Below, one piece after another: positions 19,484-59,600 of a DNA stretch of 64,000 nt. Position numbers and translations under genes: made by a program. The notes beneath the pieces are model-generated. The model was not told where the DNA came from. It saw only the letters and a program-made list of their open reading frames with translations, and ran no database searches. The DNA is taken from contig OZ020589.1 in the NCBI GenBank assembly GCA_963971535.1, positions 91,895,188 to 91,959,187 on the forward strand, read 5' to 3'. Origin of the DNA: Notolepis coatsorum. Taxonomy: Eukaryota; Chordata; Actinopteri; Aulopiformes; Paralepididae. Each line of letters starts with the position of its first letter. The stretch's first letter is position 1.

Positions 19484-20182
19484 ACAAACCCAGGCCCAAG
19501 GCTACACCAGTTTATGGAAGAGGTTGGGCCAGGAAGCATCTGGCAGGGTGTCCAGCTCAGCAGGACCAATGCTGACGATGACACCTTCAACACACTGAAG
19601 CTTCGCCTCATCAACAGCTTCTGTGAGTTTGTCTCAGAGCGCTTCAAGAGTCTGGAGACCGGCGTTCTGAAGGCAACCTCCACACTATTCGACATATCCA
19701 ACTGGCCAGAAGACACCACCAATCTGGCAACATTTGGCACAGCTGAGCTGAATGCCTTCATGGAGCATTTCCATCCAGTTTTAAAAGAGTGTGAGGACTT
19801 TGAATCGGTGGAGGCAGCTAGGCGAGAGTGGCTTGACCTCAAGGTGCTCATTGCCCGCTGCTACAGGCACCTTGATTCCCAGGTGCTGTGGCAGCGGCTG
19901 ACTCAGGGTGCCATCGGAAGGGATGGTCAGTTCCAGCACATGCAGGTGCTTGCAGAGATCAGCCTCGTCCTCCCCATGAGCACCTCTTGTTGTGAGCGCG
20001 GCTTCTCCAGCATGAAGAGGATCAAATCAGACTGGAGGTCCTGCCTCTCCAATGAGATGCTCAACTGCCTCCTGCAGATATCGGTTCATGGCCCTCCTGC
20101 ACAGGACTATGACTCTGTGAAAGCCGTGACTAAATGGTGGCGCAGTGGCTGCAGGTCACGAAGACCTCAGTACAAAGACTGA
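19484..20182 (+). CDS. hAT transposase, terminal exon with dimerisation domain
   Basis: The acceptor TTTTTTTAACTAG precedes TNPGPRLHQFMEEVGPGSIW, in phase 0 with the donor at 19100. The exon continues without a stop for 232 codons. The C-terminal hAT dimerisation signature is clear: ISLVLPMSTSCCERGFSSMK followed by RIKSDWRSCLSNEMLNCLL. The family does cut-and-paste transposition as a dimer. With the 5' half missing this copy is not a working gene. Domestication is possible in principle, but nothing here supports it. Confidence 0.82.
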   Translation, partial: TNPGPRLHQFMEEVGPGSIWQGVQLSRTNADDDTFNTLKLRLINSFCEFVSERFKSLETGVLKATSTLFDISNWPEDTTNLATFGTAELNAFMEHFHPVLKECEDFESVEAARREWLDLKVLIARCYRHLDSQVLWQRLTQGAIGRDGQFQHMQVLAEISLVLPMSTSCCERGFSSMKRIKSDWRSCLSNEMLNCLLQISVHGPPAQDYDSVKAVTKWWRSGCRSRRPQYKD

Positions 20183-33790: not shown

Positions 33791-34181
33791 AGAGAGAGAC
33801 ATATTAGCCTGTTATGCTGTAGCCCTATTTTCAGAAATCTCACCTAAATGGAAGATTGCTCCACTTCTACAAGCTCAATTAGCATGTTCATGTTCAACAT
33901 CTAGGGACCTGGGGGTATGTATTCCCAGTGTCAGAAATATTGTGTCTGTTACTAGGCTTGAGTAAATTGTAATGAAAAAAAGGAGAATATAAATGATTTT
34001 TTTTGCATCTGTGCCGGTGAATAACACCATGAAAACATTGAGATTATTTTGATTTCGCTCACTGAGCTCATTCACCACCTGCTTGAGATCAAGTGTACAA
34101 AAGATCTAAGCAAATGAATAAAGGGAAGATGATTAAACAGAAGGATTTGTAGATACAGTAATAAATGATAATCCATTTTAA

Positions 34182-34194
34182 CACTTTGGGTGCC
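34182..34194 (+). repeat. piggyBac left terminal inverted repeat
   Basis: CACTTTGGGTGCC, directly after TTAA at 34178-34181. It is an exact inverse of 41955-41967. A short interrupted palindrome, CCAGGATTCCTGG, lies about 25 bases inward and differs from the subterminal motif at the right end. Confidence 0.95.
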
Positions 34195-34529
34195 GGCCAA
34201 AAATCCGGAAAATGACTGTGGGTTGCCAGGATTCCTGGACGATTCTAGCATATCTCATGATCTTAGCGGAGCTATTTCTATATTTTATATTATAACTATG
34301 GGGAAATGGTTGGGCTCATTTGAAGACGACAAGTTGATGTACACAATGCAAAAAAACGTTTGTTTCTGCATGTCTTCGTTCGTTCACAATTACAAGTTAA
34401 AAAAGGTCAACACAAGGTAAAAATCCAGGTGGATTCTTTAGAACAGAAGTTACAGGCACTTTTATGAAAGGTGTGCCGGCGGGGTGATAATAGGTACTGA
34501 ACGTGTTATAAAGCAATTTAGACTGGGAT

Positions 34530-35325
34530 GGATGGATGGATGGTTTGATTGATTGATTGATTGTTTTATTGGTTTGATTGATAGAATGTTTGATTGTTTT
34601 GTTGATAGTTTGATTCATAGATTGATGTTTGATTGATTGATTACTTTGTTGGTCATTTGATTGATAGAATGTTTGATTGTTTTGTTGATAGTTTGATTCA
34701 TAGATTGATTTGTTTGATTGATTGATTACTTTGTTGGTCATTTGATTGATAGAATGTTTGATTGTTTTGTTGATAGTTTGATTCATAGATTGATTTGTTT
34801 GATTGATTACTTTGTTGGTCATTTGATTGATTGTTTTGTTGGTAATTTGCTTGATAGAATGTTTGATTGTTTTGTTGATAGTTTGATTCATAGATTGATT
34901 TGTTTGATTGATTGATTACTTTGTTGGTCATTTGATTGATAGAATGTTTGATTGTTTTGTTGATTCATAGATTGATTTGTTTGATTGATTGATTACTTTG
35001 TTGGTCATTTGATTGATAGAATGTTTGATTGTTTTGTTGATAGTTTGATTCATAGATTGATTTGTTTGATTACTTTGTTGGTCGTTTGATTGATAGAATG
35101 TTTTATTGTTTTGTTGATCGTTTGATTCATAGATTGATTTGTTTGATTGATTGATTACTTTGTTGGTCATTTGATTGATAGAATGTTTGATTGTTTTGTT
35201 GATAGTTTGATTCATAGATTGATTTGTTTGATTGATTGATTACTTTGTTGGTCGTTTGATTGATAGAATGTTTGATTGTTTGATTCATAGATTGTTTGAT
35301 TGATTGATTGACAGTCCGACTGACT
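34530..35325. repeat. Minisatellite of about 80-bp units inside piggyBac
   Basis: About ten units are built from TTGATTGATTACTTTGTTGG, TCATTTGATTGATAGAATG and TTTGATTGTTTTGTTGATAG plus TTTGATTCATAG. They vary in length through loss of GATT-type words. The sub-repeat GATT or TTGA pervades the unit, so slippage and unequal exchange both seem likely. Long minus-strand open frames (34397-34891 and others) are by-products of the periodicity. Confidence 0.93.
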
Positions 35326-35814
35326 GACAAACTTGAAATGCAGTAATACTATTATATCGATCAGGTGAGAATATATTGTATTGATCAGGTTAGTAGATAT
35401 TGTACCGATCAGGTATTATAGATCATGTGCATGCAATAAACTAAACAAAAAAACATTTTGACTGTTTCTCATTCATGTACTGTGCATAATCTGCTCCTGT
35501 GTTGTAGACACTGTGTTGCTCTGTACCTACCCGTTTTCCAATTTATTCGTCCATACATGATAAACACATTCATAAAGTAATAATATCTTGTATTGATAAT
35601 ATATCAATTAGTTTCACCTGGAAATACTACTACCTCATCAACCACCATGCCTGGCGCTAATGAACAAGTAAGTTATAACTACTGGTGTAGGTCCAGACAA
35701 CATTATTATAAAATACAGAATACTTTACAATGCAGAAAACTTGAAACTTTGATGCCATGAACATTTTTATTGTAAAATATGTTCAATAAACTGGGTGACA
35801 AGTCATCAGTACCA

Positions 35815-36500
35815 ACCATTGTTGCTGTGCATTATATGCTGGTAACATTCACAGTATAGGATTATGGTAATTTACCAAGACAATACCTTATAAAAAGTGA
35901 ACACTGTAATGATAACCAACCATTGTTTCAGTGCATTTAGGAGTTTGTTGGTAACATTCACAGTATAGGATTATGGTAATTTACCAAGACAATACCTTAT
36001 AAAAAGTGAACACTGTGATGATAACCAACCATTGTTTCAGTGCATTTAGGAGTTTGTTGGTAACATTCACAGTATAGGATTATGGTAATTTACCAAGACA
36101 ATACCTTATAAAAAGTGAACACTGGAGGATAATCAACCATTGTTTCAGTGCATTTAGGAGTTTGTTGGTAACATTCACAGTATAGGATTATGGTAATTTA
36201 CCAAGACAATACCTTATAAAAAGTGAACACTGGAGGATAATCAACCATTGTTTCAGTGCATTTAGGAGTTTGTTGGTAACATTCACAGTATAGGATTATG
36301 GTAATTTACCAAGACAATACCTTATAAAAAGTGAACACTGGCTGATGATAACCAACCATTGTGTCAGTGCATTTAGGAGTTTGTTGGTAACATTCACAGT
36401 ATAGGATTATGGTAATTTACCAAGACAATACCTTATAAAAAGTGAACACTGGAGGATAACCAACCATTGTTTCAGTGCATTTAGAAGTTTGCTGGTAACA
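35815..36500. repeat. Tandem array of about 108-bp units inside piggyBac
   Basis: Six to seven units each contain AACCATTGTTTCAGTGCATT, TAGGAGTTTGTTGGTAACAT, AGGATTATGGTAATTTACCA and ACCTTATAAAAAGTGAACAC. Spacing is 106-112 bp, with differences mostly in a GGAGGATAA/TGATGATAA segment. Units are near-identical, so the array is young or homogenised. Confidence 0.92.
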
Positions 36501-36509
36501 TTCACGTCA

Positions 36510-36625
36510 CATGAACTACAGGGCATATCTTACTTGGTCTCTCGCATCGATGACTGCATTGTCCATTGATAAATGGATGAAGCGCCAGATGATCTGTGGA
36601 CCAAAAAATATCCAATACATGCTTC
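36510..36625 (-). pseudogene. Decayed piggyBac transposase relic, minus-strand piece
   Basis: The plus-strand sequence AACTACAGGGCATATCTTAC followed by GATAAATGGATGAAGCGCCA parallels 38279-38360 in the intact gene (GACTACAGGGCGTACTTTGC, then GTGGAGGAATCGCCAGATCA) in the same orientation. On the minus strand, CERPSKICPVVHV matches the intact RDKLCKVRPVVDHV. It is too diverged to be a recent duplication. Confidence 0.6.
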
Positions 36626-36859
36626 CAAAGTATATAAATAATAGGCCAATGGACTGCATTAGAAAAGTGTGGTATGTTACCTACAGTATATACTTTTATA
36701 AACTGGGTGACTGTCAGCAACCATTGGTTCTGTGCAAACGGTAAAAATGAGGGGGGAAAAAGATAAAAAAAAAAAAAACTATATACACACACAATGCAAA
36801 TTATGAATGGAGTCGATACAGCTAGATCGCTAACATAACGTCTCATCTGCAAGTGGTCC

Positions 36860-36955
36860 AAACATGCCTATGCAATATCGACAACCGTGGCCCAAATACA
36901 TGTGTTCAACGCATTTGTCTTGTACAGAAAACAGTGCAACTACCCATACACTATA
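36860..36955 (+). pseudogene. Decayed piggyBac transposase relic, plus-strand piece
   Basis: The plus-strand frame at 36887 reads AQIHVFNAFVLYRKQCNYPY, closely matching the intact transposase segment IQICMFNAFVLYKKKHPQGHY (in the gene at about 37530-37590). It lies in the opposite direction to the intact gene, so an inverted or separately inserted second copy has decayed here. Confidence 0.72.
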
Positions 36956-37006
36956 CTATACTATACTATACTACAATATACTATACTATACTATACTACA
37001 CTATAT
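36956..37006. repeat. CTATA microsatellite
   Basis: Tandem ACTAT units (about nine copies with a few changes) follow the relic. They are followed by a short direct duplication, TTATTTAGAAGTA, at about 37012 and 37048. Confidence 0.85.
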
Positions 37007-37093
37007 GATGGATTATTTAGAAGTAATCTGTACTTCTGTGTGCCGGATTATTTAGAAGTAGTCTGTACTTCTGTATGACAACTAATAAAGAAA

Positions 37094-40000
37094 CTATTTA
37101 GAGAAATCCCTCTTTGTGTGGTACAGAGCGAAGCATTTGTCACGATGCAGGGGGACTTTGCACGATGTGCAAAAATATCTGGTCTCACTCCTGATGCCAC
37201 GCCTACTGCAGACACGACATTTCCTACACGGTAGCTTTTTCTTCGGGGTGGCTTTGTATGCAACCATTACATGCTTCACAAAGCCACCCACTAATCTGCT
37301 CTGCGGGTCCCCCAGTGGGACCCTAGGGTCGACACGCCCCACCTGCTCAGCCCCTGCCTCCTCCTCATCCTCATCCCCACCCCCTGCCTCCTCCCCTGCC
37401 TCCTCCCCTGCCTCCTCCCCTGCCTCCGCCTCCGCCTCCATCTCCGCTGTCACCCCAGGAATCTTCTTCTCCTTACCGTCTGTGTAGGTCCGCGCCACAG
37501 CCCTGGTGAACCGGAAGAGGTTGGAGTAATGCCCTTGTGGGTGCTTTTTTTTGTACAAGACAAAAGCGTTGAACATACATATTTGGATCAGATACATCAC
37601 AAACTTTTTGGTCCACTTTCCAGTCTTACGTGTAACCGGATAGTACGATATATTCTGATCCAGCTGATCGACGCCGTTCATGAATTTATTGTACTCCATG
37701 ATTGATGATGGCTTGAGCATCTCCACCCTCAGCGCTTTGCCCTTCTTCTGCTTCTGCCACACCATCGCCTTTTCCATGGTGTCCTCGTGGAAGCTGCTGA
37801 TGGTCTTCACGATTCTTTTATCACGCCATGCCACGATCATGACCTCCTTGTTGTTGACCGCAATGCGCTCCCCCACACCAATGTCACATTTGGTCATGTT
37901 CTTGATGATGGCTGGCTCGCCCCGGTGCTTCCTGAGGGTACCACAGACGTCGGTCCTCAACTGTCGGAGCCTGGCGGACATACGTACAGAGTTGTAGAAG
38001 TTGTCCATAAAGAGCGTATAGCCGGCCCCAGACAGACGTCCAAGCAGACCGACGACCGTGTCCCCCAGGAGCGAGCCTTCCCGACAATATGGCCTAAATG
38101 AAAAGCAATATCCTGTGCGAGATTCGCACAGGAAGTAAGACTTGATACCATAGCGGGTGGGCTTGTTTGGGTTGTAGACCCGGAAGGTCAGGCGGCCTCG
38201 CCATGCCATCACCCCCTCGTCAATGGCGAGCTCGCGTTCAGGCTGGTACAGCTCCTTGCACCTCGTGTTTACATGGTCGACTACAGGGCGTACTTTGCAC
38301 AATTTGTCTCTAACCTCCAGGGAAGTATTGTCCGCAAAGTGGAGGAATCGCCAGATCAATTGAAACCTGTTGCGTGGCATGGTCTCAGAGTAGTATGGTG
38401 TGCACATCATGTCGTCAGTGGTCCACATCTGGTCCACGCGAGGCTTCCGCAGGACACTGCTAAGGAAATTGAGTCCGAGGAACTTCTTCAGCTCCTTCAA
38501 TGTGAGGGGCTTCCAAAGCAGTGCCCTGCTACTGGTTAGCGTGGGGTCCAGCCGGGCAATGGACTGCTCAGCGTAGAGGTTGGACTGGGCAACAATAGAG
38601 TTCAGAAAAGCATCGGTCAGGAACAGATCCATCCATTTCGCAGGCCGGTAAGATCTGAGTGCCATGGCGTCCTGGAGCAACCCCGGTTGGGCTGTGAAGG
38701 GGATCCTTTGAGGCACCCAGCCCTCACGAGACCAGGCATTCTCCTCTTCCTGGCGGATCGCAGCCCTGCTCTTCGCTCCTCCACGTCGCACGCCACGACC
38801 TGTCAATTATACAAATATACTATAACACCCCTACTGTAGACATTCATATGCCACGTAGTTACAAACTGTGTGAGTGAATGAGTGAGTGTGTGTGGGGTTC
38901 AGATGTCAGAGCTGGACGTGGTGTGGGGGTCAGAGGTCAGAGCTGGAAGTGGTGTGCAGAGTGAGGCCAACTTACCTCTCTTAGATTTGCGTTTCCGCCC
39001 TGCAACGGGTTCCGGCATGTCCAGACTAGCATCCAGTTCTAGAATCACATGATGTAATACATTACACTAGGGCAACGTATTGTCATTGTATTTACCACCA
39101 TCACCACCAGACCAGGCCCTGCAGCAGCCAGTCACCACCAGGCCCAGGCCCTGCAGCAGCCAGTCACCACCAGGCCCAGGCCCTGCAGCAGCCAGTCACC
39201 ACCAGGCCCAGGCTCTAGCAGCAGCCAGTCACCACCAGGCCCAGGCTCTAGCAGCAGCCAGTCACCACCATGTACAATTACCTGCAGGAGTAGAATGTGA
39301 TCCCATGTCGTTGCCAGTCTCAGCGTCACTATCGGCAGGGTCTGCGCCAGAATCTGAATTGGATTAAATTCATTCAGTAAGTAAGTCTCACAAAACACAA
39401 TAGTAATACATTTACACATACATAAATGTAGTTAGTACATACCCAAGCATGTTGGTGTATTGGCCCCGGATTCGGTTTCGGAGCCTGTGTGAACACAAAA
39501 TAAATCAGCGGCCATTGTACATCAAAGCATGTACATGTGTGTGTGTTGTAATCAATGGAATTTTACATATGATACACAACCATGCATTTAAATATAGGCC
39601 TCACCATGTGCCCATGCCATTGTGTGTGTGTATGTGTGTGCTGTAATCAATGGAATTTGCATATAGAGGCCTCACCATGTACTGCGAAGTTCAAAGGTGT
39701 TGGAGAGGATTCATGCCTTTTGATCTTGTGTGTGTGTGTGTGTACACACACTGCACACACACACACACATACACACACATCAAAGGGCATGGACACATGG
39801 TGAGGCCTGCATCTACACACACACACACATCCATGTAACTAAATGTAGACAAACTTCAAAGGGCTGGCATCTACACACACACACATCCATGCAACCAGTG
39901 CAGCACATGGCCATCAATCAACTATATCGATTTGAACATAAAACAATATTCACATTGCAACATGATAACACATTGATAGCTACACACTTCAAATGGCGTG

Positions 40001-40986
40001 CACATGCACACACATACACACACACATCAAATGGCATGGGGTGAGGCATCTACACACACACACACATCCATGTAACTAAATGTAGACAAACTTCAAAGGG
40101 CTGGCATCTACACACACACACACATCCATGCAACCAGTGCAGCACATGGCCATCAATCAACTATATCGATTTGAACATAAAACAATATTCACATTGCAAC
40201 ATGATAACACATTGATAGCTACACACTTCAAATGGCGTGCACATGCACACACACACACACACATACACACACACATCAAATGGCATGGGGTGAGGCATCT
40301 ACACACACACACACATCCATGTAACTAAATGTAGACAAACTTCAAAGGGCTGGCATCTACACACACACACACATCCATGCAACCCGTGCAGCACATGGCC
40401 ATCAACTATCGATTTGAACATAAAACAATATTCACATTGCAACATGATACCAATTACCACGTCGACCACCACCACGTCGTCTCATGCCCAGCATGCAACT
40501 ATTATCACTTACATTGATAGCTACACACTTCAAAGAGCCACTTCAAAGGGCGTGCACATGCACACACACACACAAGACCATTACAACCTAACGTGTAGCA
40601 CATGGTGGCCTGTACATGCCTACTATATCCTATATCATTCAACTATCGATTTGAACATGCACGTAAAACAATATTCACATTGCATTAGTAAACATGACGT
40701 ACCATTGCCCCGTCGACCACCACCGCGTCCCACGTCTGAATCGTGCGATGAATCAGACTCATACCTCCGACCCAAGCCGAGATCATCGTCAGATGATTCC
40801 GGAGCTAGAATATAATAAATGCATATCAGCGTTGGTTTGGCGAACTAACGTTACATAGTCACAGAATAAGCGTTAGGTAAATCATCAAATACACGTTTCA
40901 CACACACACAATCACATGCATATCGGCGTTGGTTTGTCGAACTAACGTTACATAGTCACAGTATGTAAATCATCAAATACACGTTT

Positions 40987-41022
<36 letters not shown>

Positions 41023-41353
41023 AGACCGTGTAATTACCTGGTGGTTCCCAATCGGCGCTCCCATCAGATTCGTGGGCGGTCGAATCGCTGTCCCCTGACT
41101 CGCATGAAGAAGCTATGACCACAGCGGCAGCCTTCCTCTTCCTCGAACTGCGTCGGGTAGAGCCGCTCCCGGTCCCGGGGCGAGACGCGTTACTGGGCCC
41201 AGCAACGGTCTCACGGCTCTCTCCGATCGGAGCTACCAAAGTCGTTGGTGCTGCTGCTACTCGAACAACCGCGGGTCCAAACGCCAGCTTCGTCTGAACA
41301 AAGCGACCCGCCGCCGGATTGTCCCCTCGCTTACCTACACTACGTCTCTTCAT
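37094..41353 (-). CDS. piggyBac transposase (PGBD4-like), six exons, 766 residues
   Basis: Exons in reading order are 41353-41038, 40804-40703, 39484-39443, 39353-39282, 39038-38976 and 38799-37094. All introns are GT-AG and all junctions are phase 1. The joined length is 2301 bases with no internal stop. Exons 1-4 are acidic and serine-rich (SCESGDSDSTAHESDGSADW, PESSDDDLGLG, DSGADPADSDAETG). Exon 5 gives a basic patch (GRKRKSKRG), a likely nuclear signal. The last exon carries the catalytic core: aspartates in AIDEGVMAW (D392), LFMDNFYNS (D464) and NGVDQLDQ (D576), the piggyBac DDD triad. A GEEA-rich stretch follows, then the Cys/His-rich C-terminal domain (CRKCRVC, RYFCTSC, LHRDKCF), which in this family binds the terminal repeats. 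The enzyme cuts and pastes at TTAA. Exon borders are read by eye from splice consensus and frame. Confidence 0.88.
39095..39270. repeat. Minisatellite in the fourth intron of the piggyBac gene
   Basis: About six units of 30-33 bp contain CAGTCACCACCAGGCCCAGG and CCCTGCAGCAGC or CTCTAGCAGCAGC. It lies between the exons at 39282-39353 and 38976-39038. Confidence 0.9.
39832..40450. repeat. Tandem repeat of about 243-bp units in the second intron
   Basis: Two and a half copies each contain TGTAACTAAATGTAGACAAA, CTTCAAAGGGCTGGCATCTA, a CA run, CAACCAGTGCAGCACATGGC and TCGATTTGAACATAAAACAA. Copies 39832-40072 and 40073-40318 are nearly identical. Embedded CA runs vary in length. Frames across it are artefacts of the CA runs. 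Confidence 0.9.
40447..40490 (-). pseudogene. Decayed duplicate of piggyBac exon 2
   Basis: On the minus strand, CGTGGTGGTGGTCGACGTGG, then TAATTG and GTATCATG, parallels the 3' half and donor of exon 2 (CGCGGTGGTGGTCGACGGGG, then CAATG and GTACGTCATG). The 5' half is not recognisable. It implies that exon 2, with its flanks, was once duplicated. Confidence 0.6.
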
Positions 41354-41576
41354 ACTGATCTAATAATCTAAATGAAACTACTAACTGATCAAACTACTAT
41401 TACTACTACTGAAATATACTACCTAGACTACACACTAATCCCTCGAATAGTACTACTACTTAGCACGACTAAGTACTTTCTAAAGCACAGCTGAAACCTT
41501 ACAATTAGTCTGATACTACCACTATACTGTATAACACTATAAATATAGACTATAGGCTGATCTCAATTCAAATATC

Positions 41577-41633
41577 TCTCTCAATCTCTCTCTCTCTCTC
41601 TATCGCTCTATCTATCTCTCTCTCTCTCTCTCC
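41577..41633. repeat. TC microsatellite upstream of the piggyBac gene
   Basis: An interrupted CT/TC run lies about 225-280 bases upstream of the transposase ATG. A GA-rich strand here could affect promoter structure, but no TATA box or other promoter element is convincing. Confidence 0.8.
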
Positions 41634-41891
41634 TCCAAAACCTCGTCGATTCTGGGATCGCGCTAACGTTTTATACCTGTGGTTACATTGGCCAGGTATG
41701 CTGGCCAATCAAATGCCAGATTCATTGTGGGGTACAATATTCCCCCTATTGTGATAGTGTTAGAAAATAGGGGGACACTGCCACCTAGTGAAATTTTAGA
41801 GGAAATGCAGTTTCCGGTTCAAATTTTCTTCCAAAAGCTCGGCGGTGAAGTTCAGACGGGGAAAATCGAAAAAAGATGTAAACAGATCAAA

Positions 41892-41949
41892 GACGCTGTA
41901 CAGCGTCCTCGGCAACTTGAGCATGGCCGGGAATGACGCTGTAAAGCGT
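41892..41949. promoter_or_regulatory. Paired palindromes next to the right piggyBac end
   Basis: GACGCTGTACAGCGTC (41892-41907) is a perfect 16-base palindrome. A near copy, GACGCTGTAAAGCGTT, sits at 41934-41949, 42 bases on and 5 bases from the terminal repeat. Repeated subterminal motifs in piggyBac elements often serve as transposase-binding sites. That role here is inferred. The left end lacks this motif. Confidence 0.6.
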
Positions 41950-41954
41950 TTCTA

Positions 41955-41967
41955 GGCACCCAAAGTG
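41955..41967 (-). repeat. piggyBac right terminal inverted repeat
   Basis: GGCACCCAAAGTG, the exact reverse complement of the left end, followed by TTAA at 41968-41971. Confidence 0.95.
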
Positions 41968-41971
41968 TTAA

Positions 41972-42649
41972 TTACAAATTCATATTTGACCTTGAACTTG
42001 ACCTTCACCTTATTATGGCCAAATCATACATCTATTGATAGGGAAAAGGCTCCTCTTTCCAATGGCAGTGTTAAATCTGAATTTAGTCATTTCCTCACGG
42101 TTTTAAGATAAGAGATATAATTAGAATTTTTTTGGTAAATTCTTATTTTCGGTAAATCGCTGTTTTGATAGGGTTAAGGGTTTTACTCTTGGCTACATTT
42201 GAAAAAAAAACACAACATTAAGTTAATTTAACATCCAAGGGCCCTCATGAGGACGATTCGCGACGCGCCAACCTCTAGCGGCTCGGGTGTGCATTTCTTT
42301 TAATACAATATATAGATATAATTAAAGCCATATTTGTTGCCAGTCGATTGCCCTTTCAGATGACAAAATCTGTTCAGCGGTTCTCGAGTTACATACAGAT
42401 ATGTGAGGCGTGCGCCAAAGTACACATTACCACCCGGGGCTCTAGCTCCGTCAATCATTTGGCGATCTCGAAAATGTTTGGACAGGGTTGTAGCCAATGA
42501 GTGTGGCTTTCCAATGATACCCCATGATATAATTGGGGATCTAATACGGTCTCTATTGATCGATTTATGATAAAGAAAAGCAGGGTCCCCCAATTGGCTT
42601 AACAAGTTAATTAGTATAGTTGGTAGTAATATAGACAAGGAATATGAAT
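41972..42649. other. Gene-free stretch
   Basis: No coding region or repeat family was recognised. It contains frames without signatures only. Confidence 0.5.
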
Positions 42650-46623: not shown

Positions 46624-48383
46624 TCATGTGTCCAATAATCTTCCGGAAACTGAACTAAAAGGTTTCTCTCCTGCATGACTTATCATGTGTCTCCTTAAAT
46701 TACCTTTATCACTGAACCACTTTCCACAAACTGAACAACTAAAGGGCTTCTCTCCTGTATGAGTTCTCATGTGGTTCTTCAGATTTCCACTCTGACTGAA
46801 TCCTTTTCCACAAATAGAACAATTAAATGGTTTCTCTCCTGTATGACTTACCATGTGTCGCTTCAAATTACCTTTATCACTGAACCACTTTCTACAAACA
46901 GAACAACTAAATGGTTTCTCTCCAGTATGACTTCTCATGTGTGTCTGCAGATGTAACTTCCTACTGAACCCTTTCCCACAAACAGAACAACTAAATGGTT
47001 TCTCTCCTGTTGGTGAACAACTAAAGAGCTTCTCTCCTGTATGACTTCTCATGTGCATCTTCAAAGTTTCCTTCCGAATAAATGTTTTGCCACAGACTGA
47101 ACAACTAAATGGTTTCTCTCCAGTATGCAATCTCATATGTTTCTTCAGATTACCCTTCTCACTGAACCCTTTCCCACAAACTGAACAACTAAAGGGCCTC
47201 TCCCCCGTATGAGTTAACATGTGCATCTTCACCTTTCCCTTTTGTGCAAATGTTTTGCAACAAACTGAACAACTAAATGGTTTCTCTCCTGTATGAATTC
47301 GCATGTGTTTCTTCAGATTTCCTTTGTGTCTGAAACCATTTCCACAAACTGAACAACTAAAGGGTCTTTCCCCTGAATGAGTTCTCATGTGGCTTTTCAG
47401 ACCGCCTTTCTCACTGAACCCTTTTCCACAAAATGAACAACTAAATGGTTTCTCTCCTGTATGTGTTCTCATGTGTATCTGCAGATGTATCCTCCATTCA
47501 AACTCCTTTCCACAATCACTGCAAATAAATGGTTTCTCCCCACTGTGACTTCTCATGTGTCCTACAAATTCAATATGTGTAGTAAATTCTTTAACACAAA
47601 CGGTACATGTCCTGTGGGATTCAAGGTGAAGCTTCAAGCTCTCTGTGGGATCTAAATGTTTTCCACACAAACCACAATCACTAGAATGAATGTGAATATG
47701 CAACATTAAAGACACCTTATCAAGAAAAGATGATCCACACACTTTGCAATAAGGTGTGGACAGGATGTGACTGGATGATTCGAGTTCATGGGACAATTCC
47801 ATAGATCTGCTGTTAGATAAATTTGGTATTTTCTGTCTCTTTAAACCTGACTGAGGTTCCTCACTCTCCTCCCATTCATCATTGTTATCAGTCTCAGTTC
47901 CAGAACAGTCTGAAGAGAGGAACAGGCGATCTCTAGTTGGTTCTAAATCACCACCTGGTTCTGATACTCCAAAGTCCTCTCCATAAGATTCTGTTTTCAT
48001 CTGTTCAGTTGAGGTGCTGGGTAAACAGTAAGCCTCTCTGTTTTCCCCCCTCTGGGTTTGAAGAGACCGGAAGGACCGAGTTTTCTCTTGGCCATCTTCA
48101 CGCTTCACTGGGAGTACTGTGATCCTGGAGCCATCATCCTCCTCTAGATCTTGTAATAGTTCCTCCTGTTCCTCTTTAATCTGTAGGGGTTCTGGGTCCT
48201 GGGTTTTGCCAACTTGTGAGGACAGATTATTCTCACCGTTGTTTTCACATTTCACAGAGTCAGGACATGATGTGAGCTCTATGATATCAGGCTGCTCCAG
48301 ACCTTGAAGGAGACTGGAGCTCCTCTCCTGCTGCTCAGGATGGACCTCCTCTTCACATACAAGGAGCTGCATAGGGAAGGAGT
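46624..48383 (-). CDS. C2H2 zinc-finger protein, terminal exon with 13 fingers
   Basis: The acceptor CTCCCTCTAG ends at 48384. The exon begins AC TCC TTC, needing one base from an earlier exon, the same phase as the plus-strand relative at 22615. About 585 residues follow. The acidic linker (QLLVCEEEVHPEQQERSSS, CLPSTSTEQMKTESYGEDFG) holds no KRAB or other known domain. Thirteen C2H2 fingers run from YCKVCGSSF to CSVCGKWFSDKGNLRRHMISH (split CSVCGKWFSDK, GNLRRHMISH), most joined by TGEKPF linkers. Between fingers 9 and 10 is a finger stub (TGEKLFSCSPTGEKPF), the footprint of an in-frame finger loss. The protein is likely a sequence-specific nuclear regulator. Its 5' exons are not found in the window and may lie in the gap or beyond it. 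Confidence 0.9.
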
Positions 48384-50163
48384 CTAGAGGGAGGAGCAAA
48401 CAAACATTATTCAAACAGCTTATTTAACTATGTTTTTACCTTTGGTTTAATAATAATGTTAAAAGGGTAAGTTAATTATTTGTGATCCCTATACCTATTT
48501 CTTACTTGAAGTTGTCCATCAGTAGTCCTTTTCTCAGCACAATCCATGCTGATCTTCATATTGGATACCTGCAGCGCTGGCTAGTTAGTTACCAACCAAA
48601 CTAATGTAAACTAGTCAATGTGACAGCACTCCAGTCTGTACAAGCCCTGAAATAAACAATCATGCCTACTTTGAGTTCACTGTGGATTAGGTTTCAGCAT
48701 TTATTTCAGGGCTTGGACAGACTGGTTGGTGGCACCATTGATTTTGTATTAGTTGTATCCAGTATGAAGAACAGCATGGACTAGGGTTTAAATTATCCTG
48801 CAATTAGTTTTGTTTTTACGGTTAAAATCAGTTGAAGGCCAACACATTTACATTTCTCCAGTTGTAATGTCCTGTGAAAATAATTCCCTCTTATTTTTAT
48901 TTGGTTACCAAGTAATGTACATCCACTCAAAAGTGCTTGTTTTCACAGAAATCAAGAAATTAGAAACAGAAATCTAGATCAAACAAACAAGTCTCACTCA
49001 GAAATCCTGTGAGGTGTGTGTGTGTTTGAGAACACAAAAGAGGATTCTATGGACTGGAGTAGCATTACCACTAAACGTTTGTTGTGTTAGAATACACTAC
49101 AGCTACCATAGCATTATATAAAAAGATACAAACAATGGTTCATGTTTGTGCATTTCCCAATTTTACCAACATGTCACCTACTTCACGTAGCGTTCATAGA
49201 CTATTGATACGGTCGAACATGCTTATGTTGTGGCTAGCTTCTGCTACATGGATCCAACCACTTCAGACATCCTAGCTGTACCAAAACACTTTTTTCTCAA
49301 GACATCTGCCGTTCCGTGAGTGGAGAGAGCTGCTGCAGTGCAGACAGAGTGGAGGTAATGTAATGTTAATTATTACAATTGATATGGATGGACACGCTGA
49401 CGTTGTAGCTAGCTCTTAGTTATGCTATATGGACCCAAACACTCAAGGCATCTGGGTTGTACCAAAACAAACAGGTTTCTAAAGAAATGTGTTTCTTTTA
49501 AATTACAAAAAAGCTGGCTAGATATCCAGACATCTCATTGTCCCCAAATCAATCAAATGTTCACAAACAAAATGTGTGAATTAGTCATGTGCTATATTTC
49601 TTCGTTATCGTTTACCCAAGTGGCATCCTGCTAATGTATGGCAAACTAAATAAATACTGCCTCCCAATAGGGAGGTGTAGTGGTTACGTCATTGCCGTTT
49701 TTCGTGTTCCACCCTCTGTCCAACGCAATGTATTTCCCCATTGCCCATTTCTAAATCACCTCGTTTAAAACAAATAAAGCATTAACATTGGCATGGTGTA
49801 CCTTTCTGTGCTTATTCATCCACAATCTATAGCTCAACATGAAAATATTCGACAGTAGATGTGCATAATACTATAGGAGACCAGGCAGGAAGTGAGGTGA
49901 CAGACCAGGAAGTGACACACAAAATGGAGTGAGATGCTTGCTAGGTAGCCTGCTGCTCCAAACTATAATCTACTGAGAGAACAAAAGAGAGGAAAACTGG
50001 ATAAAATAGTAAGAATAGAAAGGTTTATTGACAACGCCTTTCTGACAATGTCAGATGACAACAAGAGAGTAAGAGGGGATGCATTTTCCACAGAGAGTGA
50101 GGGAGATGCTCAACCCTCTAAAATCAGCAATACCCTGACATCTTCTCAAACCACCAAACTATA
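48384..50163. other. Intron or intergenic stretch upstream of the zinc-finger exon
   Basis: No exon matching the usual first exon of this gene family was found on the minus strand here. A minus-strand frame near 48508-48560 (MKISMDCAEKRTTDGQLQ followed by GTAAGA) has a plausible donor but the wrong phase for the next exon. Confidence 0.45.
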
Positions 50164-55251: not shown

Positions 55252-58200
55252 TCTCCCCTTTTCAGCATGTTATCTCTAACATCATAGGAACATTCCAAAT
55301 GAAAAGTACTATAGGCTGAACATACCTTTTTAACTTAAATCTGAGACATCATCACACATTCTGGTCTCTGTCTAAAACAATGAACTGTTTAAGCTTTCAA
55401 GTGTTATTATTACAGTTAAATCACCAACCAACATTTCAACATCCAATACAACATTCCTTTCTTTTTTCCTTTTTTTTTTTTAACATTGTACCCAAAACTC
55501 TGCACAGTCCGTTTTACCCGACCAATCTACAGGTCAAGTCTCTTGACTGGCTTACTCAGTTGTCCCGATCAGGTCACCGTTTGACCAGACAACGGGGTTG
55601 TAGGTGTAGCTGTAGCCACACTCTGACTGGCAGGAACAGTCTCTAACAAGGTGTGTCTGTCAGAGTGGGAGTCTGTCCCTGCGCACTCACCAGGCGTTGC
55701 TGGGGTTGGCTGCATCGCAGGCACTGTTTGCAGGTGGCGGCGGTTACGCCGCAGCTCTGTTCCTTGCTGTGTCTGGATGACGAAGGATCTCGGGGTGCTG
55801 CTCTCGCTGGAGATCACTGCTGGCAAGGACCACTTCTTGTCATGGTCCAGCTTGGAGAGTACAACGTCTCCTGGTTGCAGGGCGGGTAGGGCCCTGGCCC
55901 CATGACGGCGGTTGAAGTAGAAGGCCTGTTTAGCTTTTTCCTTCTGATCCTTCTCTCGCACAGCTGCCTTGCTGGGCCATTTTGGGGTGAGGTTTTTCTC
56001 AAGAGTGGGGAGGGTGGTTCTGAGTTTCCTCCCCATCAAGAGCTCCGCTGGGCTGTAGCCTATGGAGGAGCACGGAGTAGACCTGTAGCTCAGTAGAGCC
56101 ATAGCTGGGTCATCTTGCTTGAGGATTTTCTTTGCCGTCTGCACGGCTCTCTCTGCATGCCCGTTGCCTTGCGGGTGATGAGGGCTGGACGTGTAGTGTT
56201 TGAAGTCCAGTTGCCTAGCCAGCTCCTTGAACTCCATACTTGCAAACTGGGGTCCATTGTCACTCACCACTTCCTCAGGAATTCCGAATCTCATGAACAC
56301 GGCCTTCAGCCTCTGAATGACTTGTGTACTGGTTGTGGAAGACAGGTGGAGTATCTCGATGAACCTAGAGTAATAATCTGATATTACTAGGTAGTTGTTG
56401 TGCTTGTACTCACAGAGGTCCATGGCGATCCTCTTCCAGGGTCGCTCTGGGAGTGGCGTGGAGAGGAGAGGCTCTTTTTGTTGAGTTCTTTTCAGTTCAC
56501 AGCACACCTGGCACGACGCCACAAGCTGGCTTAACTCTGTGGAGAGACCAGGCCACCATACTGAGGAACTCGCTCTCTCCCTACATTTCACTAGGCCCTG
56601 GTGCCCTTCATGGATTCTCTGAAGGATCTCTCCTCTCATCTGTCTCGGCATGACAATCCTGTTCCCTCTTAGGACAAGTCCATTTAGCTCTGACAGCTCT
56701 GATTTCACTGGGCCATAGGGTCTCGCCTCGATAGGCACCTCGGCTAGGTGTTCAGGCCATCCCTTTTTTATGAGTCTGGCGACTGACAACAGTTCGGCGT
56801 CAGCTGCTGTGGCCGCTCTGATCTCGTCCATCTTGCTTGTGGACGCTGGGATCCCCTCCATTACACTAGCCACATAGCATGCCACCTCACGCTGTGTGTC
56901 CAAGTCTGCATCTGTGTTGGCCATTGGGCTGCGTGACAGAGTATCTGCGACAACCAGTGTCTTTCCAGGAGCATACTCTGCCACCGCGTTGAACCTCATG
57001 AGCCTCATGAGGAGTCGCTGGCATCGGAGAGGCTGCGAGTGTTAATGAGAGGTACAAGGGGCTTGTGGTCAGTTATTAGCTTGAACTGGCCCAGTCCACT
57101 GAGGTACCGGTCGAACCTCTCGCACGCCCACACGCCCGCCAGACCTTCTTTTTCAATCTGGGCGTAGCGCGTTTCTGCTTTGGTGAGGCGTCTTGAGCAG
57201 TACGCCACAGGTTTCCACTGCTCGCCATGAAGTTGAAGTAGCACGCCCCCTAACCCGTAACTGCTTGCGTCGGCAGACACAGCGGTGGGCTTGCTCACGT
57301 CGTAGAAGGCGAGTACTGGTGCTGTGGTCAACAGCTCTTTGATCCTCTGAAAAGCTGTTTGCTGGGCATGGTTCCATGTCCATGCATTCTTGTGCTTCAG
57401 GAGCTCATACAGCGGTTGTCCTACTGTTGAGAGGTCTGGGACGTACCTGCCGAGATAATTCACCATTCCCAGCACCCTCCTCAGCTGCCGGATAGCCTCC
57501 ACTTTTGCTGGGTCAGGCCGGATCCCGGACTGGTCGATGATGTGCCCGAGAAACCGTAGCTGACTTTGCTTGATGGAGCACTTTTCTCTATTCAGCTTCA
57601 GGCCAGCCGTCTCTATGCGCTGCATCACCTTCTCCAGGCGACTGTCATGCTCTTTTTCTGTGGCCCCGTAGACGAGAATGTCGTCCATGAAGATCTCGAC
57701 GCCCTCTAACCCGTCCAGGGTCTCCATCATCTTCCTCTGGAAGATTTCCGGCGCACTTGTGATCCCGAATGGCAGTCGCTTGAAGTTGAACCTGCCAAAC
57801 GACGTGATGAAGGTGGTGAGCTTACAGCTGTCTGGGTGCAACGGGATTTGGAAGAATCCACTGGCGGCATCGAGTGACGTGAAGACTGTGGCCCCGCTTA
57901 GCTTTGCTGTGATCTCGTTGGTAGTGGGCAGGGTGTACTGTTCTCTTTTAACAGCCTCGTTCAGCCTCTTGAGATCCACACAGATGCGGGCTTTGCCTGT
58001 GCTCTTCAGGACCGGCACCATGGGTGCACACCAATCGGTAGGCTGTGTCACCTTCTCAATGATGCCATTCCTCTCCATCCTTTGGAGCTCCTCCTTGACC
58101 TTCTGCAGCATAGGGAGAGGTACACGTCGCGCTGTGTATACCGCGTACGGCTGGGCGCCATCTTTCAGCAGTATTCTTACTGGTTCAGTTTGTAATGTCC

Positions 58201-59448
58201 CATGCAAATGTAATGTATGCCTGCAAATGTTCATTTTTCCCGCTGCTGCTCACCGTTTCCTCCACTCTTCTCACTAAATTCATTTTCACTGACATTGGCC
58301 TGCTGAGTAGGTTGTTTACTGTAGGCCCCCGGATGACATAAGCTGTGAGTGGGTGTGTCTTACCCTTGTAGGTCACAGTACTCTGGATCTGTCCTATGCA
58401 ATGCAGCTCGCCACCTGGGCTGTCCAGTGGTATTTCCGCAGGCTCCAGCGGTCTGTTTGGCATGAGTGAGTGGTAGGTCTCCTCGCGAATGATGCTCACA
58501 TCCGCCCCAGTGTCGATTTTAAACTCGACCGGTGTGGAGCCCATCAACACCTTGACGGCCCACCTCTTTGGCGACCCACCTGCTTTACTCACTTCCCCCA
58601 TGTAGTACCCATCTTCTGACCCAGAGTCCTGCTGTTGTTGCTGCACTTCTTTTTGTTCTCTGACCTCACGTACTGCTTTCCTATTTCTACACACTTTGCT
58701 CCAGTGCCCTACTTTGTCGCAGGTATTACATGTGGACTTTTTAGCTGGACAGTTCTCATCTCTACTGTGCCACGCTCTCCCACATTGTCTACATTGTCCT
58801 CTGTCGCCCCCTTGTGGCTTACCCTGGCGGCCATTTCCTTTGTAGCGCTTGTTGTGAGTCACCTCGTGTATCGCCCTGCCTCCGGCTGTCTCTCCTTGCA
58901 TGCTGATCTGCGCCGCAACCTCTTCAGACTGCCTGACAGTCTCTATGGTCAGCGCGAGTGTCAGATCTCTCGTCATCTGCAACTTACGGGAGACTTCTTT
59001 GTCGAGGACTCCAACGACGATTCTGTCACGGATGTTCTCATCCTTGCTCGCGCCGAAATCACAATGCACAGCCAGTTCATACAAAGCCCTAATAAAAGTC
59101 TCTGCTTTTTCTCCTGCTCTCTGTACCCGTTGATGGAAACATGCCCGTTCGTGTATGACGTTCCGTCGCGGTACAAAGTCATCGAACTTCACTAGCACTC
59201 TTCTAAAGTCATTTTGATGTGGTACTACTTCAAATTCAAACGAACGGAATATATTCTCCGACTCGCTTCCCATAGCATATATCAGACTGCTAACCTGCAC
59301 GGTACCCTCTTCCTTATCCAACTTGGTAGCCGTTCTGAATCTCACAAAACGCTGCTTCCATTCGGGCCATTCTCCTGGTTTGTCGAAAGGAAAACTCGCC
59401 GGCGGTTGAAATTTTGCCATTTTTTTGTCTACTTTACTTCTGACACCA

Positions 59449-59600
59449 TGTAGAATGATCGTCTGGAGGCTATGACTTGGTGCAAGCTCGTTTATTGACA
59501 ACTTCAGTATGCAGTAACAGACAGACTCCTTCATGTTCCGTGTAACAATATCAATCCAGATCAATGCGCATGCCTTAGAACTACCCCTGCATATATCCCT
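59449..59600 (-). repeat. 5' LTR of the Ty3-like fossil (partial)
   Basis: It matches the inner part of the 3' LTR and directly abuts the primer-binding site. The end near 59600 is less certain than the inner edge. Confidence 0.8.

Follow-up and report, generated by a model that had tools for sequence, protein, structure and literature searches.

The elements of the piggyBac superfamily have been reported to measure 1.23–9.51 kb and to carry single open reading frames (ORFs) (PMC10813416). Among them, piggyBat of Myotis lucifugus has a single 572-residue ORF, 15-bp ends, the catalytic residues D237, D309 and D413, and imperfect palindromes that are confined to its left end, at bp 19–30 (PMC11707139). 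The Trichoplusia ni (T. ni) piggyBac is about 2.5 kb long (PMC10813416) and has a palindrome at both ends, and a dimer of its cysteine-rich domain (CRD) binds the palindromic internal repeat of its left end at bp 17–33 (PMC7351741). In the human genes PGBD1, PGBD2 and PGBD3/CSB-PGBD3, several exons precede a 3' splice site and a single 3'-terminal exon that encodes the transposase. PGBD3 also has 13-nt ends and TTAA, and numerous short elements, MER85, have these ends too (PMC2268245, PMC3902484); in PGBD1–3, the element has been domesticated and the exons upstream are supplied by the host. In medaka and other teleosts, the piggyBac-superfamily element Teratorn was reported to be active and to be a 180-kb fusion with a herpesvirus (PMC5822658). 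A complete piggyBac element of 7786 bp, with its transposase gene on the minus strand, occupies positions 34182–41967 of a 64,000-nucleotide stretch of Notolepis coatsorum (contig OZ020589.1; the whole stretch is hereafter called the window). We assign a probability of about 0.93 to the reading that this is a full-length, coding-intact copy of a young family of piggyBac-superfamily DNA transposons with a predicted six-exon gene. As judged from sequence, the family would be a recently active six-exon piggyBac variant, piggyBat-like, with many short non-autonomous partners.

The element is bounded by a pair of terminal inverted repeats (TIRs) of 13 bp without mismatch (13/13; CACTTTGGGTGCC), at 34182–34194 on the plus strand and 41955–41967 on the minus strand. 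These TIRs are short and have C as their first base, as is characteristic of the superfamily, and TTAA at 34178–34181 and 41968–41971 forms the target site duplication on both sides. The window contains seven TTAA-anchored exact 13-bp pairs, of which only the element's own ends at base 13 inwards and at TTAA outwards; the remaining six extend further, being parts of other inverted repeats, and no pair of the element's kind occurred in 20 simulated 64-kb sequences. The perfect ends and TTAA flanks described in the earlier note on this DNA are therefore borne out. The surrounding repeat (33982–34181 and 41972–42171) is an older one, with 4152 first candidates in searches of the window's own 3.42-Gb assembly, which contains RAG2, as expected of a jawed vertebrate, and in which all genome searches reported here were made. 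When the 200-bp flanks on either side were joined at one TTAA, all 40 places scored among these candidates matched at 91–93% with the junction unbroken, and four of them were checked base by base. These paralogous empty sites carry the single TTAA prior to insertion, and since the flanks are uninterrupted in 40/40 scored repeat copies, it follows that the element inserted into a pre-existing repeat, at a TTAA that other copies of this repeat share. The empty site that had been proposed as a check was thus found in uninterrupted copies of the invaded repeat, but not in a sister individual.

The family to which the element belongs is numerous. The 17-mer of TTAA plus TIR has 2756 exact occurrences, a 26-mer in exon 6 (the exon with the transposase domain) common to all 25 aligned copies has 451, and a 26-mer specific to a young subfamily among these 25 has 110, with 0 occurrences of the control in each case (for the 17-mer, the reversed pattern); in addition, the left end of the autonomous element occurs 270 times as a 31-mer. 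A search with exon 6 gave 946 first candidates, and the 40 scored were all 98–100% alike. Eight full-length copies with both ends exact, all lying within the initial 134 Mb of a single chromosome, are 7786 to 9289 bases long. TTAA stands on both sides of 8/8 of these and of 5/5 short copies, all 13 having been selected by exact TTAA plus TIR, and the 200-bp flanks of the eight show no cross-match, i.e., they lie at independent TTAA sites. Among six of the eight, any two copies differ at 0–2 of 2286 coding bases, on average at 0.87 (0.038%), and at 0–2 bases in the introns. The six-exon frame is intact in seven of the eight, with 761 or 763 codons using the exon limits of the window copy, and the frame of exons 3–6 is intact in 20/24 other copies, mostly best matches (30 were tried and 6 could not be bounded). 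Since so many close and still gene-bearing relatives are present in the genome, the family must have moved very recently. At a substitution rate of 0.5–1 × 10^-8 per site and year, the six near-identical copies would be some tens of thousands of years old. The youngest subfamily was amplified so recently that transposition may still be under way.

The earlier suggestion that this copy inserted recently and may have been mobile in its lineage is supported by such near-identical copies between TTAA flanks, present in number, and by the empty repeat copies. The window copy itself lies outside the youngest burst. It belongs to another subfamily, differing from the copy L031 at 48/2271 coding bases (about 2% from the youngest burst). 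It is also older, with 6 private changes in 1883 coding bases, which would correspond to an upper age of some 0.3–0.6 million years at the same rates. Several observations weigh against so young and intact a picture. The requirement of exact ends favours young copies among the eight, and the exon-6 loci L010–L028 were chosen as best matches. Moreover, L010, L020 and L028 are broken copies, 61 bases of exon 6 are deleted in L032, and in L048, which is about 5% away, a shift by one base breaks the exon 1 frame and the exon 3 acceptor is unclear. As well, no near-identical sister of the window copy was found among the copies compared, the nearest, L014, being 13/1871 (0.7%) away. The rival explanation that survives best is that of a young relic, in which the burst was recent and neither the window copy nor its sisters are able to move any longer. 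We regard it as a serious minority possibility, in keeping with the 0.7% distance of the nearest sister and with cis-acting needs of the ends that are known by analogy only, while the coding-intact state of 7/8 full-length copies, six of them only 0–2 coding bases apart, argues for a mobile family.

The predicted protein has the features of a piggyBac transposase that the earlier note had listed, namely the catalytic aspartate triad and the cysteine-rich tail. The Pfam domain DDE_Tnp_1_7 (4.6e-80) is located in exon 6, as is zf-Tnp_2 (1.7e-05; 25.7 bits, the cut-off being 24), with Cys/His at 723–759, and the C-terminal cysteine-rich region aligns with the piggyBat tail, as expected of the zinc-binding domain. 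D392, D464 and D576 align with piggyBat D237, D309 and D413, and D579 is aligned too. A search of solved structures gave only two matches, piggyBat (9c0f, 2.8e-101), spanning the DDE part and the cysteine-rich tail, and T. ni piggyBac (6x67/6x68), whose DDE domain matched at 9.2e-34 for 6x67 and which shares TTAA with the element. The score of piggyBat is far above that of T. ni piggyBac, which is the more distant in sequence, as far as these two structure matches go. Relatives outside the genome were found neither in phage records, nor in viral contigs (single-sequence patterns), nor in prokaryote contigs. A single-sequence AlphaFold2 model of exon 6, with a mean predicted local distance difference test score of 35, was not used. 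Exons 1–5 supply 198 residues of N-terminal region, the second half of which (residues 106–198) is acidic with a predicted isoelectric point of 4.47, and 9 of the 11 predicted casein kinase II (CKII) sites of this region fall within exons 2–4. Disordered N-termini with CKII sites have been described, and removal of the N-terminal CKII sites is reported to raise piggyBat activity (PMC11707139).

In place of the single uninterrupted ORF typical of piggyBac, five predicted exons stand upstream of the domain exon. The six predicted exons on the minus strand, joined by five GT-AG introns that are all of phase 1, give 766 codons plus a stop: exon 1 with the start codon (41038–41353), exon 2 (40703–40804), exon 3 (39443–39484), exon 4 (39282–39353), exon 5 (38976–39038) and exon 6 (37094–38799), which holds the entire DDE transposase domain and the C-terminal cysteine-rich zinc finger. 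Between them lie intron 1 (40805–41037), intron 2 (39485–40702, containing a ~245-bp tandem array at 39809–40449), intron 3 (39354–39442), intron 4 (39039–39281, containing a 32-bp tandem array at 39101–39270) and intron 5 (38800–38975), which is nearly invariant between copies. The same frame had been read earlier from the window alone, and the ten predicted splice dinucleotides prove to be kept in 8/8 full-length copies. Relative to the window, indels in exons are all multiples of 3 in the seven frame-intact full-length copies, whereas 23–28 of the 30–35 non-exon indels per copy are not (all eight copies, with one 6-base difference at the start of exon 3 counted as non-exon). For the window copy and L031, the ratio of nonsynonymous to synonymous substitution rates (dN/dS) amounts to 0.28 for exon 6 and 0.55 for exons 1–5 (13 changes only); for L031 and L048, the values are 0.22 and 0.44, respectively. 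The predicted junctions rest on this conservation of the splice sites, on exon indels that keep the frame and on dN/dS values under 1, and the exact 5' exon structure is a well-supported prediction.

A distinctly unlikely rival explanation is that the 5' gene model is wrong, with exon 6 coding alone, or with fewer or other exons, and the upstream exons being chance open stretches. The whole conserved domain does lie within exon 6, and piggyBat manages with its single ORF. Several results count against the six-exon model in this respect. There are 515 frame-legal exon chains under a loose splice score based on general splice-site frequencies, and a spliced (processed) copy was not found among the 40 scored of 1084 candidates, which gave only exon-by-exon pieces. 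By splice score, the six-exon model ranks 14 among 189 five-intron chains, and all eight of the top-scoring chains listed include an additional exon at 39605–39640. A point against the main reading as a whole is that there is no AATAAA polyadenylation signal within 1.3 kb past the stop. In favour of the six-exon chain, none of 100 simulated interiors reached its score, and the exon indels and the dN/dS of exons 1–5 (0.55 and 0.44) argue for coding upstream exons. The additional exon was set aside, as its donor GT is GC in six of the seven other copies, the seventh not being aligned there; GC donors are rare but occur, and GC thus counts against this exon without excluding it. A donor within exon 1, at 41334, is a possible alternative. 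As a side observation, a piece of exon 2 including the donor boundary is repeated within intron 2 (40402–40478 against 40639–40729, 79% over 92 bases), which resembles the duplicated intron/exon boundaries of lancelet PGBD5 (PMC3902484).

The introns also bear on the possibility that the near-identical copies arose by segmental duplication, gene conversion or assembly error and not by transposition. In 24 copies, intron 5 has shared variable sites at 0/168 non-CpG positions against 7/210 non-CpG fourfold sites (P 0.019), and any variable site at 2/168 against 16/210 (P 0.003); the figure without CpG correction (0 against 13.4 expected) overstates the low variability. The low variation of intron 5 might reflect constraint, gene conversion or chance, and the predicted fold of this intron is less stable than those of 200/200 shuffles. 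Introns 3 and 5 being less variable than expected could be explained by gene conversion, and some matches lie on the small unplaced contigs C715, C4096 and C4118; nevertheless, an origin other than transposition is very improbable, given the eight full-length copies with 200-bp flanks that do not cross-match and with TTAA on both sides. Least probable of all is a domesticated piggyBac-derived host gene kept by selection, which would suit the intact frame, the dN/dS below 1 and the multi-exon host genes PGBD1, 2, 3 and 5 of vertebrates (PMC3902484, PMC2268245), but not the exact ends with TTAA, the close copies, which number in the hundreds and lie at independent sites, or the empty sites, the single copy, missing ends and conserved locus of domesticated PGBD genes not being found here.

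As a transposon of its own, the element departs from the known systems in size and in gene structure. The statement of the earlier note that the majority of piggyBac elements are smaller and interrupted less by introns fits the literature (PMC10813416, PMC3902484), and the family has 13-bp ends, 766 codons in six exons and a length of 7.8–9.3 kb with tandem arrays, compared with the 15-bp ends and single ORF of piggyBat and the 2.5 kb of T. ni piggyBac. The 3' noncoding stretch at 34544–36505 contains the two main tandem arrays, with ~85-bp units at 34544–35311 and ~109-bp units at 35837–36505. By the chosen array rows, tandem arrays make up 2626 of the 7786 bases, about a third, and the large size of the element is largely due to them. 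Compared with Teratorn, the window element has one gene, and no viral gene was found in it. The placement of the domain exon resembles that of human PGBD1–3, but the upstream exons here lie inside the mobile element and move along with it.

The gene-proximal (right) end contains a perfect 14-bp palindrome, ACGCTGTACAGCGT, at 41893–41906 (bp 62–75 from the right end), and a second 14-bp palindrome with one mismatch at 41936–41949 (bp 19–32). No copy of these was found at the left end, where a palindrome at bp 45–57 is within chance expectation and is not claimed. The element is like piggyBat in having subterminal palindromes at one end, and differs from T. ni piggyBac, in which they occur at both. 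In position, the palindrome at bp 19–32 is comparable to that of piggyBat at bp 19–30 and to the CRD-bound repeat of T. ni piggyBac at bp 17–33. A putative promoter inside the element (41669–41709, minus strand) is suggested by matches to TATAAAA (41675) and, upstream, to CCAAT (41691) and ATTGG (41709). Five short elements, L037–L040 (943–958 bp) and L041 (1868 bp), have both 13-bp ends; beyond these, what they have in common with the autonomous element is limited to the first 79–83 bp of the right end, which include both palindromes. L041 includes the inner part of the four shorter elements, and the other end of the short elements, as a 30-mer, has 371 exact occurrences. That only the first 79–83 bp of the gene-proximal end are kept suggests which DNA the transposase requires. 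By analogy, the short elements are probably non-autonomous and moved in trans by the transposase of the family, similar to the set of short elements with the ends of PGBD3.

Other piggyBac families with intact domains also seem to be present, since matches in a DDE_Tnp_1_7 profile search of the genome (2365 first candidates, 116 scored, 11 of the matches listed with an internal stop) fall into several length classes, 1077 bases for the window family and also 1131, 1137, 1083 and 1071. One match of another class (L065, G000:C13:111374186-111375486) has short Ser/Asp/Glu-rich open stretches upstream, after acceptor-like TATAG sites; split N-termini may be shared with other piggyBac families. In the remainder of the window, retrotransposon-like frames on the minus strand at 55569–59564 have reverse transcriptase, RNase H and integrase domains in adjacent frames, a C2H2 zinc-finger frame of 596 codons, with many fingers, lies on the minus strand at 46624–48414, and a fragment with a hAT dimerisation region (0.00016) is found at 19514–20182.

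By analogy with piggyBac and piggyBat, a promoter within the gene-proximal end would drive a spliced mRNA, and the transposase would bind the two ends with paired cysteine-rich domains sitting on the gene-proximal-end palindromes. The DDD centre would then cut the element out and join it into a new TTAA, and the same enzyme would mobilise the short non-autonomous elements with the same ends. Since the reading phase is 1 on both sides of exons 2–5, any one of them could be skipped with the frame kept, and retention of intron 5 would stop the protein at codon 224, ahead of the DDE domain. Introns have been reported to protect transgenes from the human silencing hub (HUSH) (PMC8770142). It is conceivable, though doubtful, that the family is transposing now and owes part of its success to its own intron-bearing 5' leader, whose introns would shield the transcript from the HUSH-type silencing of long intronless genes, while skipping of exons 2–4 or retention of intron 5 could yield a restrained, a hyperactive or a truncated transposase by turns.

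What appears to be new is a mobile piggyBac carrying its own five small upstream exons, the kind of element itself being known. The open-licence literature, few papers of which were covered in detail, yielded no description of a mobile piggyBac from a vertebrate with a gene split in this way, so that this is weak evidence of novelty; a literature search for the 13-bp end sequence gave two papers, both titled on human genes, and the family may already be in repeat libraries. With 0–2 differences per 2286 coding bases, many intact copies and short partners, the family in N. coatsorum offers a natural setting in which to follow a piggyBac invasion as it takes place, and the structure of its gene makes it possible to ask directly if a DNA transposon is regulated through introns and exon skipping.

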